11,674 nt of DNA, taken from Bacilli bacterium. GTDB taxonomy: Bacteria > Bacillota_I > Bacilli_A > RF39 > UBA660. The notes under the pieces were generated by a model. That model had not been told where the DNA came from. It saw nothing but the letters and a program-made list of their open reading frames with translations, and did not search any database. Below are positions 2,797-11,674 of the stretch, in pieces (within the stretch, counting starts at the first letter, position 1; each line of letters begins with the position of its first letter). The position numbers and the translations under genes are program-made. The stretch spans positions 1 through 11,674 of the forward strand of contig JAQVXV010000023.1 in assembly GCA_028708945.1 (NCBI GenBank), read 5' to 3'.

Positions 2797-2825
2797 ATTA
2801 TAACTTTTTTCCTTGGAAAAGTAAA
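2797..2825 (-). promoter_or_regulatory. AbiEi promoter with operator-like inverted repeat
   Basis: On the minus strand, TTTACT (2825-2820), a 17-bp spacer and a perfect TATAAT (2802-2797) lie 28 bp upstream of the AbiEi start. Plus-strand TTTTCC-TT-GGAAAA (2807-2820), an inverted repeat, fills the spacer, and another TTTCC/GGAAA pair (2780-2784, 2793-2797) flanks the transcription start. AbiEi proteins repress their own promoters through inverted repeats, so this is a natural candidate operator. Confidence 0.6.
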
Positions 2826-2958
2826 TTAGTTTTTTATTTTGGTTATATTCTTTTGTGTATTTTAGTTAAATTACTTATTTACCTTATCCCTTTACATTAA
2901 AGTGACTTTTTTTGTAATGTTCCAAAATAAAAATATTCTATTTTTTATCAATTAGTGG

Positions 2959-2964
2959 TATAAT
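2959..2964 (+). promoter_or_regulatory. -10 element for the winged-helix/nuclease-like gene
   Basis: TATAAT at 2959-2964 is preceded by TGG, giving an extended -10 (TGGTATAAT), and lies 29 bp before the ATG at 2994. No good -35 is visible at the usual spacing, which is common for extended -10 promoters. It diverges from the AbiEi promoter across a 224-bp spacer. Confidence 0.5.
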
Positions 2965-2993
2965 TTTAATAAGAGAATAGTGAAGGTGATAAA

Positions 2994-3656
2994 ATGAATG
3001 GTTTTAATTATGAAGAAAATTTAGTAAAAACTTTCTCATCATTTTTAGAAAAAAAGCAAGATATCATCATAAAAGAAATGCCTATTAGATGGGGAAACAT
3101 TGATATAGTTACCGTTAAAAACAATACTATACCTTTCAATACGGAACAATGTAAAATTTTATCAAAACCATCTGCGGCGAAAATATTTCTAAAAATCAAA
3201 AATCAAAGACCTATTTCAAAAAATGCAATAATGGAAATAGCTGGAATAAGTAATTCTACTGCAACTTCTATGCTAAGAGAATTAATAAAAACTAATTTAA
3301 TAAAAAAAGTTGATAACTTTTATTACAGGAATATTGCATTTGAATTCCCAAAGGTTATAATAACAGGATTTGAGGCAAAGCTACATGACTATAATAAAGC
3401 TTTCTTCCAGGCTTCAATCAATAAAGACTATGTCGATTATAGTTATATTGTTTTTCCAATGGTTGAAGCAATAAAAATACATAATAAGAACTATCAATTT
3501 CTTAAAGATAATGGTATCGGAATTATTGGAGTTACTCATAAAAAATATTCTGTACTTTTACAAGCATCTTCAAAAAATGAAATAAAAAAATATGTTAGAT
3601 TAATAAATTTAGTTCAATCATATTTATTATCAGAAAAAGCCCTAACTAATAATTAG
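2994..3656 (+). CDS. Winged-helix protein with PD-(D/E)XK nuclease-like halves
   Basis: A 220-residue cytoplasmic protein. Residues 24-41 (IIIKEMPIRWGNIDIVTV) and 121-156 (VIITGFEAKLHDYNKAFFQA, then a YIVFP strand) look like the two conserved parts of a PD-(D/E)XK nuclease fold. Candidate metal ligands are E28, D37, E127 and K129, with Q139 following in the helix as in Mrr- and TnsA-like families. Residues 60-115 (SAAKIFLKIKN, then ISKNAIMEIAGISNSTATSM) form a helix-turn-helix/winged helix, placed between the two halves rather than at an end. GIGIIGV (174-180) fits the later nuclease strand. AAGGTGATAAA precedes the ATG and an extended -10 lies upstream. The gene is monocistronic and its last 15 bases overlap the convergent operon inside a shared terminator. 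It could be a site-specific defence nuclease or a regulator with a dead nuclease fold. The fold call is mine and untested. Confidence 0.55.
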   Translation: MNGFNYEENLVKTFSSFLEKKQDIIIKEMPIRWGNIDIVTVKNNTIPFNTEQCKILSKPSAAKIFLKIKNQRPISKNAIMEIAGISNSTATSMLRELIKTNLIKKVDNFYYRNIAFEFPKVIITGFEAKLHDYNKAFFQASINKDYVDYSYIVFPMVEAIKIHNKNYQFLKDNGIGIIGVTHKKYSVLLQASSKNEIKKYVRLINLVQSYLLSEKALTNN

Positions 3657-3669
3657 TTGGGCTTTTTTT
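3634..3669. terminator. Shared bidirectional terminator
   Basis: GCCCTAACTAAT/ATTAGTTGGGC (3639-3662) forms an 11-bp stem with one bulged T, flanked by AAAAA on the left and seven T on the right. It ends the plus-strand gene at 3656 and the minus-strand operon ending at 3642. Both stop codons lie inside the hairpin. Confidence 0.85.
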
Positions 3670-4853
3670 ATAAACAACTCTATTCCAAGTAGCCAATCTT
3701 CCAGATGTGACGATGCCTTTTTTAATACATTTTGTAACTCAGCATAATTAGGTATAGTGTTATATATATCACTATACATTTTAATTGCAAACTCAATCTT
3801 TCTTTTTGTGAATTTAATTCTTTCTTCAATACTCTCAATATCGTTTGCTTCGGCAGACATTATTGACAACGCTTCCCAATATTGATGTTCTAAGTCAACA
3901 AACGAGACGTCATCAGAATCATTAAAAGCAGTAGTATCTATTTTCGTATTAGATTTTAACACATCAACATCAAAGTTTTTTGCTATTTCATTTATCGTTT
4001 CAAATGGTAAATATGTTAATAATGGTAATGATAAATATTTTTTCTTCCTTCGCCCAAATATATCCACTCCATCAAATCGTGCGGTATTAAATTTTCTTAA
4101 ATTATTAAACCAACCACTAGCTATATAGTCACAATTTAACATGTTAAATAGCAACGAATTAACAAAAGTATATCCCACAATGACACTAAAATCTTTCTTT
4201 TGTAAAGAATATATAAAATATAATATGTTAGATAGTGTTTCCGGATCTATAGACTCGTAATTATTATTAGCATTTGTATCATAGTTTATAACTAAATAAA
4301 TCCCATTATTATTGTAATCCTTATTTTCTTCTACTAAATCTAGCAATATTTCATCAACATCGTTTTTACTATGGAATAATTTTACATCCATCAATAATGA
4401 CATATAATGACTAAATTTGTTGTCGGTATCAAAATCCCTAAACTTTTTATATATATCCAATGAATAATCAAACTTCCAATCAATTGAATCTATGTATAAA
4501 GTTGGAGTTATTATATTATTTGATATCTCCTTAATAGAAGAATAGTATTTATTAAAATAACCATCTATTCTAGGATCTTTTGTTCTCATATCTCTTCTTG
4601 AAACCTCAGCAGGAAAGTCAAAATTATGTTCAAGATTTTTTAATAAATCCTTATTAAAAGTTGAATAATAAAATTGTGGATCAATAAATATGTTGTCTTT
4701 ATTTAAACTACTTGTAGAACTAGAATATGCTTTTATTGAATCAAATAACTCTTCTCGCAAAGAAAATACCACACCCGATGCTTCATCGTTATTAATTGCA
4801 TCTGTTATTTTATTTCCTTTTGCAGGACCATGCTGAATTAATACTTTTGTCAA
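3642..4853 (-). CDS. Unrecognised ~403-residue partner of the kinase
   Basis: I do not recognise this family with certainty. The start region reads TKVLIQHGPAKGNKITDAI, followed by short predicted strands (GVVFS, NIFIDPQFY, TPTLYIDSIDW, GIYLVINYD, DFSVIVGYTF, CDYIASGWF) alternating with helices. That pattern suggests an alpha/beta, possibly TIM-barrel, enzyme. FGRRKKKYLSLPLLTYLP is a basic stretch before an acidic, helical C-terminal quarter. There is no signal peptide or membrane segment. I chose TTG at 4853: the GGGAGG ribosome binding site ends 8 nt before it, whereas the in-frame GTG at 4862 lies within that site. The start is 1 nt after the kinase stop, so the two are translationally coupled and probably act together, with this protein as possible kinase substrate or effector. 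It is last in the DpnII operon and complete. Confidence 0.75.
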   Translation of the reverse strand: MTKVLIQHGPAKGNKITDAINNDEASGVVFSLREELFDSIKAYSSSTSSLNKDNIFIDPQFYYSTFNKDLLKNLEHNFDFPAEVSRRDMRTKDPRIDGYFNKYYSSIKEISNNIITPTLYIDSIDWKFDYSLDIYKKFRDFDTDNKFSHYMSLLMDVKLFHSKNDVDEILLDLVEENKDYNNNGIYLVINYDTNANNNYESIDPETLSNILYFIYSLQKKDFSVIVGYTFVNSLLFNMLNCDYIASGWFNNLRKFNTARFDGVDIFGRRKKKYLSLPLLTYLPFETINEIAKNFDVDVLKSNTKIDTTAFNDSDDVSFVDLEHQYWEALSIMSAEANDIESIEERIKFTKRKIEFAIKMYSDIYNTIPNYAELQNVLKKASSHLEDWLLGIELFIKKAQLIIS

Positions 4854-4854
4854 T

Positions 4855-5874
4855 TTATTCACCTCCCAAAGTGGAAAGAGCCTCTAAAAAACTATCCACA
4901 TTTTCAAATCTATATAAATTTTCCGGTTGCAACATTTTTTTTAAAACACTAAATAGTAATATGTTTTTTTCATTGTTTTCATCACAGAATTCATAAAATA
5001 TATCTTCGACTTCCCGGTCTAATTTATCTAAAATATTGTCATGCGGCCTGTTTGAACCCTGTGTTAAATATTTATCTATTAAATTAATTCCAGTAATCAT
5101 TTCATAACATATTATACCTAAGGAATATAAGTCACTTGAAAAATCTGCTTTACAAGCATTTCCATAATATTGTTCTGGTGATGCATATATTTGTTTTCCC
5201 ATTATATATCCATAATTAGTACTATCTCTATTAATTATTTTGATTGTTCCTGGATCAATTACCACAAACTTTTCATTTGGTGTAACCATTATATTATCTG
5301 GCGAAAGGTCTCTGTGTACTAATCCATACTCATAATATTTTTTAATCGTTTTACCAATACTATGTAGTAGTGATTTAGAAAGGTTAACATTCTCAACTTT
5401 ATCTAGCTTAATTTTCTTGTGTTTGCTTTCTAATGTTTCCCCATCTATTGCCTCTTCTATTAATAATCCAAAAAATGAATTGATAAGTTTTATATTGCTG
5501 GAATAGGCATAAACCTTAGGGAATAAACCTTCAGTATTACTTGTCACATCTATATACCTGTCAAACGACCTTTTTAAATAATAAACAATTTCGTTAATTT
5601 TATTTAATTCATACGGTATGGGACTATCATCCAATGAATTGATATATTCATCGACCGTTGAAAAAGCATCTGTATTAACAAATTCAGTAATAGCATTCAA
5701 TCCTTTTAAATAATCAAAAAACTTAGCAACCATTCTTTTTTTATCATTTTCATATATAAAGAAACAAAAAGACTGTCCACTTCTTTTGGGATTGGCAATT
5801 ATCTTGTAATTATCATCCCATAAATTATTATCTTTCAATAACTTTTCAATAGAATCAATAAAAGCTTTATACAA
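4855..5874 (-). CDS. Eukaryotic-type Ser/Thr protein kinase
   Basis: A soluble 339-residue Hanks-type kinase. With the TTG start, the ATP lysine is K51 (MVAKFF), the catalytic loop is HRDLSPDN at 187-194 (base D189, N194), the metal-binding motif is DPG at 207-209 instead of DFG, and the activation segment ends SPEQ at 232-235. It continues with a helix-F Asp and YSLGIICYEMITG. All key residues are present, so it should be active. The glycine loop is degenerate (NPKRSGQSFCFF), with a single Gly. It lacks the PASTA and membrane segments of PrkC/Stk kinases, so it is not a housekeeping cell-wall kinase. TTG at 5874 has GAGG 8 nt upstream; the GTG at 5883 would overlap that site. It lies 13 nt after the DpnII endonuclease gene and 1 nt before the next gene. 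Kinases in defence loci often act as infection sensors, but that role here is inference. Confidence 0.88.
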   Translation of the reverse strand: MYKAFIDSIEKLLKDNNLWDDNYKIIANPKRSGQSFCFFIYENDKKRMVAKFFDYLKGLNAITEFVNTDAFSTVDEYINSLDDSPIPYELNKINEIVYYLKRSFDRYIDVTSNTEGLFPKVYAYSSNIKLINSFFGLLIEEAIDGETLESKHKKIKLDKVENVNLSKSLLHSIGKTIKKYYEYGLVHRDLSPDNIMVTPNEKFVVIDPGTIKIINRDSTNYGYIMGKQIYASPEQYYGNACKADFSSDLYSLGIICYEMITGINLIDKYLTQGSNRPHDNILDKLDREVEDIFYEFCDENNEKNILLFSVLKKMLQPENLYRFENVDSFLEALSTLGGE

Positions 5875-5887
5875 ACACTCCACCTCA

Positions 5888-6742
5888 CTATATTTTTTCT
5901 AGCACGCCATTATCTAAATCATCTAAAGTATATAAATGTTCAATAACGCCATATGCTTCTCTTAGATTATTTTGTGTTGAACGCCACCCTTTACCATCGG
6001 TTATCCATACAAATTCAATACCGCTAATACCTTTAATATCTTTTCCGAGTTTAGCATAACTTCTAGCCGTTTCGTTTAATTTAGAACCACTTCCACCATA
6101 GAAATTAGTTTCTATTAAAAGCAATTTGCCAGTTCTAGATTTAACAACAAAATCAAATCGCTTGTTTGTCTTCTTTTCATCATCTAAGTTAAGATCATCT
6201 AATTCATCGGTTTTAAAATGTTTTTTAATGTCATTTTTAGTAGCTTCTTTTAAATAATCAACATTAGGTATTTTTTTAATGTAACTCTCCACAATATCTT
6301 CCATTAAATGACCAGTTCTATTCTTTCTTGCATTTGTATCAAGCCCAACTTCAACACCCGTTACATAATCTACTAAATTCTTGATTTTTTTCTTTTCTAA
6401 TAACTCCACTAATCCACTTTCTCTTAATAATTTAGTATAATCTGCTACTTCTCTGTTCATTTTCTTAAAACTATAAGATATTACTTCACCATCAATTATT
6501 TTAATTTCACCTTCACGAACAGCAAGTAAAATTGGTATAACTTCTATTACATCAGGATATTCCACGATAAGTTTCATAAACTCTTGTTCAATATTGTCTT
6601 TCCCAATTAAATAATTTAATAAGTTTAGTTGCATTTCTACTTTACTAACGTTTCTATATACCTTATCAAAATCAACATAATAATTGTATGTTGCTATAGA
6701 ATCCCTTAAACTACCTATTATTTCCTCAAATCTTCTTTTCAT
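5888..6742 (-). CDS. dpnB: Type II restriction endonuclease, DpnII/MboI family
   Basis: A 284-residue endonuclease expected to cut unmethylated GATC in double-stranded DNA. The family pattern is clear: GLDTNARKNRTGHLME (133-148), KRFDFVVKS (195-203), then LIETNFYGGSGSKLNETARS (209-228). The last two carry the D197 and E211 expected at a PD-(D/E)XK-type centre, followed by the GGSGSKLNETARSY signature. WITDGKGWRSTQNNLREA near the C-terminus is also typical. The length matches pneumococcal DpnII (about 288 residues). ATG at 6742 lies 7 nt after AAGGAGG; a TTG two codons earlier is too close to that site. It overlaps the end of dpnA by 17 nt and is preceded by both methylases, the DpnM-DpnA-DpnB order of Streptococcus pneumoniae. 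The GATC specificity is inferred from family and partners. Confidence 0.9.
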   Translation of the reverse strand: MKRRFEEIIGSLRDSIATYNYYVDFDKVYRNVSKVEMQLNLLNYLIGKDNIEQEFMKLIVEYPDVIEVIPILLAVREGEIKIIDGEVISYSFKKMNREVADYTKLLRESGLVELLEKKKIKNLVDYVTGVEVGLDTNARKNRTGHLMEDIVESYIKKIPNVDYLKEATKNDIKKHFKTDELDDLNLDDEKKTNKRFDFVVKSRTGKLLLIETNFYGGSGSKLNETARSYAKLGKDIKGISGIEFVWITDGKGWRSTQNNLREAYGVIEHLYTLDDLDNGVLEKI

Positions 6743-7523
6743 TTTCAAGCCTCCTTACTGATAAATCCAAATATTCTTTTTCTTTTTCTATTCCAATATA
6801 TTTTCTATTTAACATCTTGGCTACCACTCCAGTAGTCCCACTGCCACTAAATGGATCTAATATAACATCATCTTCATCAGTTGACGCTAATATAATTTTT
6901 TCTAATAAAGCTATGGGTTTTTGTGTAGGGTGTTTCCCGTGCTTCTTTTCACTAGTCTTTACAAGAGGTGTTTCCCAAACATCCTTCATCTGTTTCCCTT
7001 TATTCATTTCTTTCATTAAATCATAATTAAATTTATGCTTTGCCTTCTTCAAATCTTTTTTTGCCCAAAGAATCGTTTCGGTTGAATGAGTAAATGCACG
7101 GCAACTAATATTCGGTGGTGGATTTAATTTTTTCCAAGTAATATTATTAATAATTTTAAATCCTTCTTCTTCAAGAGCTAGCCCAATTGAATATATATTA
7201 TGCATTGTTCCACTTATCCAAATAGTACCTTCATCTTTTAAAACTTTTTTGCATTCCTTGAGCCATTTTTTATTAAATTTATGCTTTTCTAAAACACTTA
7301 TTTTCTCGTCCCAATCTCCTTTTTTCACGCTGGTCATCTTACCTGACTGACACGTAATTCCATTTCCAGAAAGAAAATAAGGCGGATCAGCAAAAATCAT
7401 ATCTATCGATTTTTCTTTTATTTTTTTTATAACTTTTAGGGAGTCGTTATTTATTAAAATCGTATCAGCGTTATTATAATACGGTTTAATATTATTAATA
7501 ATTTGTGATAATAGTTTCTTCAA
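6726..7523 (-). CDS. dpnA: Adenine DNA methyltransferase, DpnA type
   Basis: A 265-residue N6-adenine methylase of the beta class: catalytic motif IV (FADPPYF, DPPY at 46-49) comes first and the SAM-binding motif I (DPFSGSGTTG, 223-232) last, with KHPTQKP (197-203) between. The stretch GNGITCQSGKMTSVKKGDWD after DPPY is characteristic of the second methylase of DpnII systems. In pneumococcus that enzyme modifies GATC also on single-stranded DNA and protects incoming plasmid DNA during transformation. The start is TTG at 7523, with AAAGAGG 5 nt upstream and no ATG nearby. It overlaps dpnM by 29 nt and dpnB by 17 nt, so the three genes are tightly coupled. Complete, no oddities. Confidence 0.9.
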   Translation of the reverse strand: MKKLLSQIINNIKPYYNNADTILINNDSLKVIKKIKEKSIDMIFADPPYFLSGNGITCQSGKMTSVKKGDWDEKISVLEKHKFNKKWLKECKKVLKDEGTIWISGTMHNIYSIGLALEEEGFKIINNITWKKLNPPPNISCRAFTHSTETILWAKKDLKKAKHKFNYDLMKEMNKGKQMKDVWETPLVKTSEKKHGKHPTQKPIALLEKIILASTDEDDVILDPFSGSGTTGVVAKMLNRKYIGIEKEKEYLDLSVRRLENEKKI

Positions 7524-8331
7524 CAGAACCTCTTTTGCTACCTATTGAATTAATATTTCTTTTTGCGTTAATAACTGTTATGTTGTAGTCTTTATATAAT
7601 TCATTAATAAAGACTGTATTATGGTTAGATAACATTACTTTAACTCCCTTTTTATCTAATCTTTTATAACAATTAAATAATCTTATTTGGTCTTCTTTTC
7701 CAAATCCTTTATCGGTATAACTAGTAAATGAATCATCTTTCAAATTATCGTAAGGTGGATCAAAATATACAAAGTCACCTTTTTTAGCATTTTTTACAGC
7801 GTCTTCAAAGTCACCGTTTAAAATAATTACATTGTTTTTTGTTAAATATTCATGAATTGCTTCTAAATTATCTTGTTCAAATGTATTAACCTTTTTGCTT
7901 TTGTTAAAAGGAACGTTGAATTCATTCTTGCTATTTACACGATATAATCCGTTAAAACAAGTTTTGTTCAAATAAATAGTTCGCGCTGCTTTTTCATAAT
8001 CAGTCCATTTAGATATTATTTCTTTTTCTCTATCAATATTTCTGATTTTATAAAAATACTCTTCACAGTTATTACTCTCATATATTTTGAGTTGCTTATA
8101 TAAATCATCTAGTTTATTCTTGTTTCCTGCCAATATATTATAAATATTGATTAACTCTGCATTGTAATCATTGATTACCGCGTTTTTTGGTATCAATTCA
8201 AATAATACAGCTCCCCCACCAACGAATGGTTCAAAATATGTTCCGAATTCTTTTGGTGCATATTCTTTTATACGCTCTATTATCTGCCTTTTTCCACCAA
8301 CCCATTTGACAAATGGTTTCGGTTTTGCCAT
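7495..8331 (-). CDS. dpnM: Dam-family GATC adenine methyltransferase (M.DpnII)
   Basis: A 278-residue D12-class (Dam) N6-adenine methylase that protects GATC sites on double-stranded DNA from the linked endonuclease. Motifs: FVKWVGGKR (7-15) and YFEPFVGGGAV (32-42) for SAM binding, INDYNAELIN (53-62), FNGLYRVNSKNEFNVP (126-141), and catalytic DPPY at 191-194. These closely follow DpnM of Streptococcus pneumoniae (about 284 residues). I start it at ATG 8331, where GGAGG lies 7 nt upstream. The frame extends 27 codons further up to 8412, but that stretch contains the extended -10 promoter (8360-8368) and has no family match. It is the first gene of the five-gene operon, as expected for making the protective methylase before the nuclease. 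Confidence 0.92.
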   Translation of the reverse strand: MAKPKPFVKWVGGKRQIIERIKEYAPKEFGTYFEPFVGGGAVLFELIPKNAVINDYNAELINIYNILAGNKNKLDDLYKQLKIYESNNCEEYFYKIRNIDREKEIISKWTDYEKAARTIYLNKTCFNGLYRVNSKNEFNVPFNKSKKVNTFEQDNLEAIHEYLTKNNVIILNGDFEDAVKNAKKGDFVYFDPPYDNLKDDSFTSYTDKGFGKEDQIRLFNCYKRLDKKGVKVMLSNHNTVFINELYKDYNITVINAKRNINSIGSKRGSVEETIITNY

Positions 8332-8359
8332 ACTCTCGCCTCCAATCATATACATCTCC

Positions 8360-8368
8360 ATTATACCA
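8360..8368 (-). promoter_or_regulatory. Extended -10 promoter of the dpnM operon
   Basis: TGGTATAAT on the minus strand (8368-8360) is a perfect extended -10. Transcription would begin near 8353, leaving about 22 nt before ATG 8331 with its GGAGG site. Two more TATAAT matches lie further up (8388-8383 and 8449-8444) and may be additional start sites. None has a strong -35. Confidence 0.5.
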
Positions 8369-8535
8369 TCAATGCAGTTTATATTATAGTATTTAATTTG
8401 ATATTTCGACATAAGACTTGCAATCTTTTTAATTTAGAATCATATTATAGAACACTTGATAAAGCGATTTAATTATGATTAAAGAAAACAGACTTATTAT
8501 AAATGATTTACCTATAATTATTAATAAGAGGCAAT

Positions 8536-8585
8536 AAAAAAGAACCAACCTTTAAAGCATAATTGCTCTATTGGTTGGTTTTTAT
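8536..8585. terminator. Bidirectional terminator
   Basis: AACCAACC (8543-8550) pairs with GGTTGGTT (8573-8580), with a smaller AGCA/TGCT hairpin inside the loop. A-run/T-run flanks lie on both sides. On the minus strand it ends transcription of the small gene at 8582-8902 before the dpnM promoter, isolating the restriction operon. Confidence 0.75.
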
Positions 8586-8902
8586 TTGTTTGATAAGTCT
8601 TTTTCATGAATGGTCATAAAGCTTTCACCTTTTTTCAGTTTGTTATGTTGGATCATCTTTATTGTCCAATTGCTTAATTCATTTACTTCTTGAATAACAG
8701 TTAAATAAATATATTGATTGCTATTATCATCGTAATCGTAAACATAGTAATAGTTTGAGTTATCAATAAAATCAATTTTTTCTATCACTTCTTCTTTGGT
8801 ACAATGATTAACATCCATTACAAAGTAAGCGAGACTTTTATAGTTTCTTTTTATTAAATATGGAAACACTTCTACTAAATCAAATTCCCTTAATCCGTCC
8901 AT
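8582..8902 (-). CDS. Unrecognised 106-residue protein
   Basis: ATG at 8902 is 7 nt after GGAGG and is the likely start. The frame extends to 9001, but the promoter (TTGAAC at 9001-8996, TATTAT at 8979-8974) lies in that extension. The protein begins MDGLREFDLVEVFPYLIKRN, is acidic and rich in Tyr, Asn and Asp (YYYVYDYDDNSNQYIYLTVI), and has no signal peptide or membrane segment. It is probably a compact cytoplasmic protein. It is followed directly by a terminator, so it is a single-gene transcript lying between the element's GC-rich site and the restriction operon. That position is typical of small phage or element accessory genes. I do not recognise a family and assign no function. Confidence 0.65.
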   Translation of the reverse strand: MDGLREFDLVEVFPYLIKRNYKSLAYFVMDVNHCTKEEVIEKIDFIDNSNYYYVYDYDDNSNQYIYLTVIQEVNELSNWTIKMIQHNKLKKGESFMTIHEKDLSNK

Positions 8903-9154: not shown

Positions 9155-9231
9155 AATAATCTGTGACACTATTTTTTAGTTTTTTTGTTTATATTAAAAG
9201 GATTGATTGTTTTTTCTTGTCACAGATTATT
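9155..9231. repeat. 14-bp perfect inverted repeat, 49-bp spacer
   Basis: AATAATCTGTGACA (9155-9168) and TGTCACAGATTATT (9218-9231) are exact inverted copies. The right arm includes the stop codon of the primase-helicase gene (9227-9229). No T-run follows on either side, so it is not a standard terminator. Protein-binding or recombination site is possible. Confidence 0.7.
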
Positions 9232-10294
9232 TTACTTTATACTTAGTATCATGTTCTTCTTTTAGAACATCATTAATAATTAATTCTTGTTCTAGTTCAT
9301 CATCTATATAGTTTGGTTCAACTACACAAATATATCTTGCCCTGTCATTATCATCTCTAGTTTGTTTAGTATATGTACCTTTATTATGTTCAATATAACC
9401 TCTTTCACTAAAACCTTTTTTAATTGTTTTGGGATTAAAGCCTAGTTTTACTACTTCATCATCAAAGGCTTGTTGATAAACATAATATTTATGATCTAAG
9501 TATTTACCTAATCTCATCCCTTTGAAATTCCAATTAAACATTTCTGATTTGGATTGAAATACACTAATAAGTGTTTCGTATGCATGTTCTATCATATCTT
9601 TATTTTTATTAACATCTAATATTTTTAGAAGTCTTGAACCATATTGAACACTATTATCTTTATTAGGATTATTAAATATAATTTTATTAGTTAAATAATC
9701 AGTTATTACTAGAAGTGCAGCTATATTTATATGGGATGTTATTGTAGTTAGTTTTTGATTAGTTAGATATTTTATTATTTCATTCATAAAAGCAGATAAT
9801 TCTTTTGATCTATCTTTTTTTAATTTGATAATTTCTTTAATGTAAGTTTCTCCCGCTACTCCATAATGTTCTATTATTTCTTTATGAATATTTATAGCAT
9901 CTACTCCATAAATTTCTATTACTCTTGATATTACTCCATTATTTGAGTTATTAGATGTTATAGTTGATTCTCCAGTAGTAAGAGTTATATTTTTCCACTC
10001 TCTGAATTCTCTTATTCCTCCATCTTTGGATCCTCTAATTTTTCCTTTACCATTACTTACTGTATAAACAAAGTTAGAATTAAATTCATCATTGTTTTTA
10101 CCTGCTACTTCTCTTTCATCAATACATAGTGGTAAATCGTTATTAATTGTTGCAAGTGCCTCTAATGCTACCTTGGTAGTACTAAAACTTGTTATTAATA
10201 CTTCTGGGTTACCCCATACCGATTGAGCGGCTTTTAAGGCAGCCGTTTTTCCACTTCTTGAATAATACCAATTATGAAAGACAAAGTTTCTAAC
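9227..10294 (-). pseudogene. Primase-helicase, C-terminal part (DUF927-like ATPase)
   Basis: This is the in-frame continuation, after a TAA at 10295-10297, of the gene at the right edge. It reads VRNFVFHNWYYSRSGKTAAL (P-loop-like SRSGKT at residues 472-477 counting from the edge), SVWGNPEVLITSFSTTKVAL, a Walker B-like LPLCIDE (514-520), and KGKIRGSKDGGIREFREWKN, matching the ATPase core of DUF927-type phage/plasmid replication proteins. It then runs into a helical tail ending EEHDTKYKVK at TAA 9227. No ATG, GTG or TTG occurs in frame between the internal stop and ATG 9787, so only a 186-residue tail piece could be made by itself, without the ATPase. All 355 codons are open, so the break is a single recent event. 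Confidence 0.8.
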
Positions 10295-11674
10295 TTATAA
10301 AATTTTAAGCAAAGGTACTGCAAAAGAACAATTAATATAAGTTCTAAATATATCATTACTTAATAATGGTTTTATTAATTTTATCCATTCTTCTAATGTT
10401 CCTTTAGTACTATAAGCTTTTTCCATCTTTCCAAATTCTCCTGGTATATCAACTATTAAATCTCCACTTGCATATGGTACAAATAAATCTTTATACCAAC
10501 CATATTGAGAAACACTGTTTTTAATACTTATTTTATTAATGTTTATATATTGCCATAAATACTCTTGAACTTTACTTGAGTTTCTTGTAACAAAATCTAT
10601 TCCTATTTCATTTAAAATACTATTTTTACCGGAAAACAAAATATCTTTAGAATATAATGCTTTATGCCATTTAGAGTTTTTATAATATGATATTTCTGCT
10701 TTTTCTAACCCTAGATAAGTATCTTTAGTTATTTTAGTTATTACAATTGGAGTTGAACATATTAGTGTTTCTTCATCATCTTTTTTATTAAACCATACTC
10801 CTTTTTCATTCACTTTAAAACCACTAGGGATTATTATATCTCCTAGTGGTTCCATAAAATTATCAGTTTCTTTTTTCATTATCCACCTTCTTTCTAATAT
10901 TTCATCCATTATTTTTTTAAATTGATCTATATTGTCAGTTTTAATAAATAATTCACTAGGATCTTTTACTTCTTTATCATTTAAACTAATTAATGATATT
11001 TTTTTATTATGGTTTTTATTTAATAACATCTTATAAATGGTTGTAGCAAATTTAATACCACCATCATCTGGTTCTTTATAAATAATTACTTCTAAATCTT
11101 TTAATAAACTAACCCACTTTTCTTTGAATAGATTAGCACCTGGTACTCCTAAAGCTGGATACCCTGCGTAAGATAATGTTTGTGTATCTGATTCTCCTTC
11201 TACTAAAATGACATATCCCTTTTCTTTTATTTCTTTCATATTTTGCAGTCCGTATAAACATAATGGTTTATCGTTATTTAAATACTTAAATTGTTTATTC
11301 CCATAACGGATTTTTTCTTTAACTAAATTACCTTTTTCATCTAAATATGGAAATAATACTCCTTTTTCATAATCTTTTAATTTCCAAGTTTCTTTTAAAT
11401 AATCAAGTGGTATCTTTTTCGTTCTAGAATATTCTTCTAAAGATAGTTTTGTAATTGGTATATGCCTCTTCTTGTTTTTAATAACCACTGGTTCATTATT
11501 TAGTTTTTGAATAAACTGATCATAATTTCCGGATTCATTACAAGCGAAACATTTAAAAAGTCCATTCTCTAAATTAATGGATAACGATGGGGTGTTGTCA
11601 TTATGAAATGGACAATTTACTAAAACTTGTTTTTTTCTTTGTATATTAGAAAAGTATTTTCTATAATCATCATA
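10295..11674 (-). pseudogene. Primase-helicase, N-terminal part: CHC2 zinc finger, Toprim, DUF927
   Basis: The minus-strand frame is open from the right edge (no start seen) to TAA 10295. Counting from the edge: a CHC2 primase zinc finger NCPFH (C21, H24) and KCFAC (C42, C45); a Toprim domain with VILVEGESDTQTL (E159 region) and YKEPDDGG (202-206); then, from about 275, PLGDIIIPSGFKVNEKGVWF, the start of a DUF927 domain, through FAVPLLKIL before the stop. Such proteins prime and unwind DNA for replication of phages, satellites and plasmids. The GTG at 11488 is not the start, because the zinc finger lies upstream of it in the same frame. The stop removes the whole ATPase core encoded at 9227-10294, so replication by this protein should fail unless the stop is suppressed. 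The 5' end is outside the window. Confidence 0.85.

Follow-up and report, generated by a model that had tools for sequence, protein, structure and literature searches.

A candidate anti-phage module of three genes pairing a Hanks-type kinase with a transglycosylase-like barrel and a nuclease-fold protein

Among described defense systems, Dpd and BRC contain a protein of the tRNA-guanine transglycosylase (TGT) type together with other partners; the parts of a 2026 BREX survey (PMC12839542) that deal with them name DpdB/C, PglZ, BrxC-like and HerA/FtsK proteins, and no kinase–TGT pair is described in those parts. Restriction by base removal is already known from the PabI family, as presented in parts of PMC10273834. 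Ser/Thr kinase domains are found in PD-T4-6, in MAD6 of MADS and in PglW of BREX. The locus compared with these systems here lies in a window (the whole stretch of DNA analyzed, 11,674 nt) from a Bacilli bacterium and encodes a nuclease-fold protein (N), a barrel protein (T) and a kinase (K). It resembles Dpd and BRC in placing a TGT-type protein in a putative defense setting. By analogy with PabI-type glycosylases, base removal, followed by N, may be one role of T, although PabI is a single enzyme of HALFPIPE fold, unlike T, whose glycosylase activity is putative. Of the named systems that we tested, none has its defining features matched by the module, which looks like kin to multi-gene, nuclease-bearing defense modules, in an undescribed combination. 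No description of the trio was found in the open-licence PMC literature.

The open reading frames stood at the positions given by a first-pass annotation, which had described K and T as a two-gene addition to a DpnII operon. The number of genes was instead three, the third being the convergent N gene. The features are as follows:

2994–3656, + strand: N gene, 220 aa; predicted PD-(D/E)XK nuclease fold with an inserted winged helix
3641–3661, strand not assigned (T run on the + strand): terminator-like hairpin at the common 3' ends of N and T, from a consensus scan
3642–4853, − strand: T gene, 403 aa; predicted TIM barrel of TGT fold, with a DPQxY motif and invariant Asp58
4855–5874, − strand: K gene, Hanks-type Ser/Thr kinase with DPG replacing DFG (Pfam Pkinase, 2.5e-16)
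4859–4867, − strand: ribosome-binding site of T, GGGAGGTGA, within the 3' end of K
5878–5886, − strand: ribosome-binding site of K, GAGGTGGAG
5888–8412, − strand: complete DpnII system, context outside the unit (Pfam DpnII, 2.9e-102; methyltransferases recognized)
5888–6748, − strand: DpnII endonuclease gene dpnB (Pfam DpnII, 2.9e-102)
6726–7523, − strand: second methyltransferase of the DpnII system, recognized as such
7495–8412, − strand: Dam-type methyltransferase, recognized as such

K starts with TTG at 5874, 13 nt beyond the dpnB stop at 5888, and ends at 4855; its homologs start at the matching position. T starts with TTG at 4853, 1 nt past the K stop, and ends at 3642. This start is consistent with where T homologs begin, and the resulting length of 403 aa equals that of a 99%-identical protein (P0001). 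Both TTG starts follow good ribosome-binding sites, as had been claimed. N and T are convergent in the window, and the last 15 nt of N overlap the end of T. A consensus scan of 2800–8600 returned two terminator-like sites, where 1.2 are expected by chance in this region; the better of the two was that at 3641–3661, with a 9-pair stem and a T run on the + strand. None fell in the interval between dpnB and K, in agreement with the first-pass annotation.

A genome scan with T returned 12 loci, each with a kinase directly upstream of T and an N relative beside it where the contigs reach. Over all searches, N adjoined T at 24 of the 24 places outside the window, and K adjoined T or was fused to it at 23. 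Each place was counted once, with L011 and L012 taken as one gene set split across contigs; near copies (L001–L004, L005–L006, L008–L009 and L028–L029) leave about 18 independent places. The kinase and the unrecognized protein are thus a real recurrent pair, as the annotation had proposed, and with K beside or fused to T at all but one of the 24 places, T is neither a protein never linked to kinases nor half of a pair seen once. N was convergent with T at 15 places and upstream on the same strand at nine. In two-gene copies, K and T overlapped or were separated by ≤18 nt, except in L030 (166 nt, with a short kinase ORF) and L033 (82 nt). Three genomes encoded a K–T fusion, in which one chain of 676 to 683 residues holds both and the neighboring N gene is convergent. 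The evolutionary distances of K, T and N were correlated across 17 loci (r = 0.60 for K–T, 0.74 for T–N and 0.62 for K–N; host descent uncontrolled), and none of 9999 permutations reached the observed values. Left out of these 17 loci were most near copies, as well as copies in which a gene is absent, short or broken. N, K and T are a mobile three-gene unit with tight coupling and K–T fusions.

The sole place lacking K was L047 (6876–8841, − strand), where N and T stand between a serine recombinase and prophage lysis/tail-like genes; this copy either has decayed or represents a variant without the kinase. In Aerococcus (L010 6040–6737 and L031 12003–12700), the N gene is broken in two while K and T remain open.

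Co-occurrence was also investigated in 398 genomes of one class, drawn around the known carrier G009. The same nine genomes, the carrier included, had both a strong N match (E ≤ 2.8e-17) and T. N matches were found in 91 of the 398; beyond ten genomes they were at E 1e-6 or weaker and mostly covered only the winged helix. One further genome (G286) had a partial N match of 6.3e-12 and no T. Another (G257) was rejected as a T carrier, its 7.1e-5 match lying only at the profile end, in an unrelated ORF. In a second class, around carrier G010, the narrower A1 profile found T in two of 391 genomes, the carrier included.

N is likely a member of the PD-(D/E)XK superfamily with putative DNA-cutting activity. 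The structure model and its fold matches indicate a PD-(D/E)XK alpha-beta core carrying E7, D37, E127-x-K129 and Q139; at about residues 50–112, where strand 2 of the core leads to strand 3, a winged helix is inserted. E7, E28, D37, E127, K129 and Q139 were conserved in 17 of 17 loci, in contrast to the variable winged helix. PaqCI, the NucS-like 2vld and 3dnx have the core fold and the pattern of D, ExK and Q in common with N; unlike them, N carries a winged helix inside the core and is an obligate neighbor of T. Three identities for N were set aside as weak, confined to the winged-helix part or below cut-off: PDC-S72 (PADLOC, 2.4e-6) and Csa3 (6.4e-4), both matching over the winged helix, and MarR (Pfam, 9.6e-5, below cut-off, with PDB sequence hits to MarR regulators).

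K matched Pfam Pkinase above the cut-off (2.5e-16). Its DPG motif, which the first-pass annotation had singled out as unusual, is real and characterizes the window's clade, DFG, DVG or DTG being found in other clades; yet all the catalytic landmarks examined (G33, K51, H187-R188-D189, N194, D207 and G209) were kept in 17 of 17 loci. Among defense kinase models, K matched PD-T4-6 (1.1e-23), mad6 (1.3e-17) and PglW (0.0013). What K shares with these systems is the Ser/Thr kinase domain: the best PD-T4-6 match is confined to residues 141–265, with none beyond the common kinase core, and the models come without a partner of T or N type.

T was described in the first pass as unrecognized, and this was borne out by profile search, with no Pfam, PADLOC or NCBIfam match at E ≤ 1. 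Its predicted structure is a TIM barrel of the TGT type, and Asp58 was invariant in 272 of 272 sequences. The likeness is to the fold of the TGT family (PF01702; 1iq8, QTRT1 and the Z. mobilis TGT) as modeled. Foldseek alone did not single out TGT. No match was obtained with hhalign from alignments of 20 or 41 T rows to four TGTs or of 264 T rows (one, L033, frame-shifted) to 34 TGTs, and searching PDB sequences with the T profile yielded three hits that look like chance. PF01702 had no match to T in the window or in the carrier genomes, which encode a separate true TGT. At the level of sequence, hhalign and Pfam thus showed no kinship of T to TGT. The TGT nucleophile is an Asp at the end of strand 8. 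In T this place reads Ala/Ser-Ser/Thr-Gly, matched by strand order rather than by superposition, so that T, unlike TGT, appears to lack the nucleophile. T further differs from TGT in the absence of the zinc motif from the window's clade and in its coupling to a kinase and a nuclease-fold protein. A CxCxxC...His motif was observed in the T parts of the K–T fusions (L046 1061–2245, L048 8213–9400 and L049 7401–8591) and was absent from other T clades.

Searches for T relatives gave 145 proteins in the protein search, 187 with the profile and 124 for the distant set, with the best 120 of each listed. Among the matches listed were Bacillota (Clostridium, Listeria, Streptococcus, Enterococcus, Turicibacter, Christensenella and others), haloarchaea (Halobellus, Halorubrum, Halobacterium, Halorientalis and Halorarum) and metagenome bins named Nanohaloarchaea, Anaerolineae and Aureabacteria; in most of these named taxa T alone was seen. 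The whole trio was found in Bacillota loci, on one haloarchaeal plasmid (L013) and on three IMG/VR viral contigs. On one of these (L034, 178 kb) the order is a repressor-like gene, an IrrE-like peptidase, K, T, N and a phage integrase. Viral-contig scans with the window's T or A1 gave no match, the scan of phage records gave none, the plasmid scan gave one, and the viral structure library returned nothing informative.

The genomic setting fits defense, as the annotation had supposed. Outside the window, restriction genes of types other than DpnII stood near four of 18 loci: Eco57I-like (L013), an EcoRII-type endonuclease with a C5 methylase (L026), a C5 methylase (L033) and a Mod/Res pair of type III (L046). 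In six of the 18, a recombinase or integrase was confirmed. Other defense-type neighbors, chosen by eye and then scanned, were a ThsB-like TIR gene with a PDC-M50A gene after it, some 0.9 kb downstream of the module (L027 11017–12274, + strand), KAP/PDC-S20 and DUF4238 (L007) and, farther from the module, a PLD-Snf2 helicase (L005). The last matched DpdE weakly, among many helicases. At more than half of the 18 loci there was no confirmed defense gene among neighbors chosen by eye. In L028, whose module follows a groEL-like gene as judged by eye, a protein with GIY-YIG and Schlafen group 3 helicase parts is encoded some 5.4 kb past the module (15224–16897, + strand).

Neighboring genes were also compared with the models of PADLOC 2.0 (2023). 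The 139 neighbor ORFs of the 18 loci (139 of 140, with the window's seven ORFs and a single very long one omitted) matched 100 models at E ≤ 1e-15. Among the best 25 of these 100, 24 were DNA-methylase models, each matched by two ORFs; none of the 25 was matched by more than two of the 139 ORFs, and no Dpd model was among them. In ten arbitrarily placed 14-kb control stretches from five module genomes, 97 of 98 ORFs gave 11 models, with no restriction gene among them. The contrast is only rough, since the models overlap one another and the signal comes from few genes.

An anti-invader role is the best reading of these data because the three proteins are enzyme-like, because they are linked by operon, overlap and fusion, and because they are found on a plasmid, on viral contigs and in islands next to unrelated defense genes. 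We consider it fairly probable that N–K–T is a mobile anti-phage (anti-invader) module in which T, fused to K or coupled to it in translation, engages, K phosphorylates and N cuts. Four points are inferred: the defensive function itself, the ligand of T, the substrate of K and the sequence in which the steps occur. The barrel pocket of T, around invariant Asp58, would engage a base or nucleotide of the invading nucleic acid, which T would either sense or, as an enzyme, strip of the base. The state of T would be passed to K, which would phosphorylate T, N or both; the coupling of K to T suggests that an encounter in the T pocket is converted to phosphorylation. N, set on DNA by its winged helix, would then cut DNA of the invader (or of the cell) and is likely the effector. 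A more specific form is tentative and rather unlikely, namely that a TGT-derived barrel without its nucleophile removes (or reads) a base in invading DNA or RNA via Asp58, the kinase switches, and N cuts at the treated site or close to it. If true, it would constitute an undescribed class of immunity by base attack under the control of phosphorylation.

The first-pass annotation had instead built K and T into the DpnII system, as added subunits providing a second line behind restriction, for instance if GATC cleavage is evaded. K does lie on the same strand 13 nt behind dpnB with no terminator-like site between, and co-transcription of dpnB and K is likely in this organism. However, a phmmer search of the flanking DNA (up to about 8 to 10 kb per side, less at contig ends) with the three DpnII proteins found no DpnII endonuclease around any of the 24 other places; its hits were a single D12 methylase, in L006, and a single type III methylase, in L046. 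The restriction genes near other places are of the Eco57I-like, EcoRII, C5 methylase and type III kinds, and the constant partner is N. The DpnII-subunit proposal is therefore very improbable; the module stands behind DpnII because defense genes gather in islands, not as a part of DpnII. An addiction module resembling toxin–antitoxin pairs, in which N (or K) harms the cell, its partners restrain it and phage defense is a by-product, is unlikely. It would suit a small mobile unit that includes a nuclease-fold protein and occurs on prophages, plasmids and islands, and the often convergent N could be expressed apart from K and T; but three enzyme-like proteins with intact active-site residues exceed what a toxin pair typically needs, and, as there is no small antitoxin-like gene, an enzyme would have to serve as antitoxin.

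The TGT-like fold of T and its nuclease-fold partner also bring to mind self-marking of the Dpd type, in which DpdA is a TGT homolog, as stated in parts of PMC12839542. T would put a modified base into host DNA, N would cut unmarked DNA and K would regulate one of them. This is quite unlikely because, judged by strand order, the nucleophile place of T is empty; moreover, no deazaguanine-synthesis genes were seen among the neighbors, part of whose ORFs were scanned individually. The MarR-like winged helix of N, for its part, would allow N to be a DNA-binding regulator of the host or element whose nuclease fold is unused, with K and T signaling. Such a regulatory module is quite improbable, in that the nuclease-fold residues are the part of N kept in all 17 loci while the winged helix varies, and the spread of the module is rare and patchy.

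Should the anti-invader role hold, the trio would be a compact immune module made of three enzymes and carried by Bacillota, a haloarchaeal plasmid and viral contigs. It would tie a protein of TGT fold, so far known for deazaguanine exchange in tRNA and DNA, to a Ser/Thr kinase, and phospho-control of nuclease-based immunity would be testable with three single-residue mutants. T has no recognizing model in Pfam, NCBIfam or PADLOC 2.0, and N is recognized only via its winged helix.

Several further genes were noted in the window. An AbiEi-type antitoxin gene lies at 2176–2769 on the − strand (PADLOC AbiEi, 3.1e-64), and the 11,674 nt contain no long ORF for an AbiEii partner. Also on the − strand are a serine-recombinase-like fragment at 923–1180, similar to the resolvase of L001–L003, a Cch helix-turn-helix protein at 9227–9787 (PF18662) and a DUF927/CHC2 primase-like ORF at 10295–11674. 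This gene content gives the window the look of a piece of an integrated element, which may be SCC-like.
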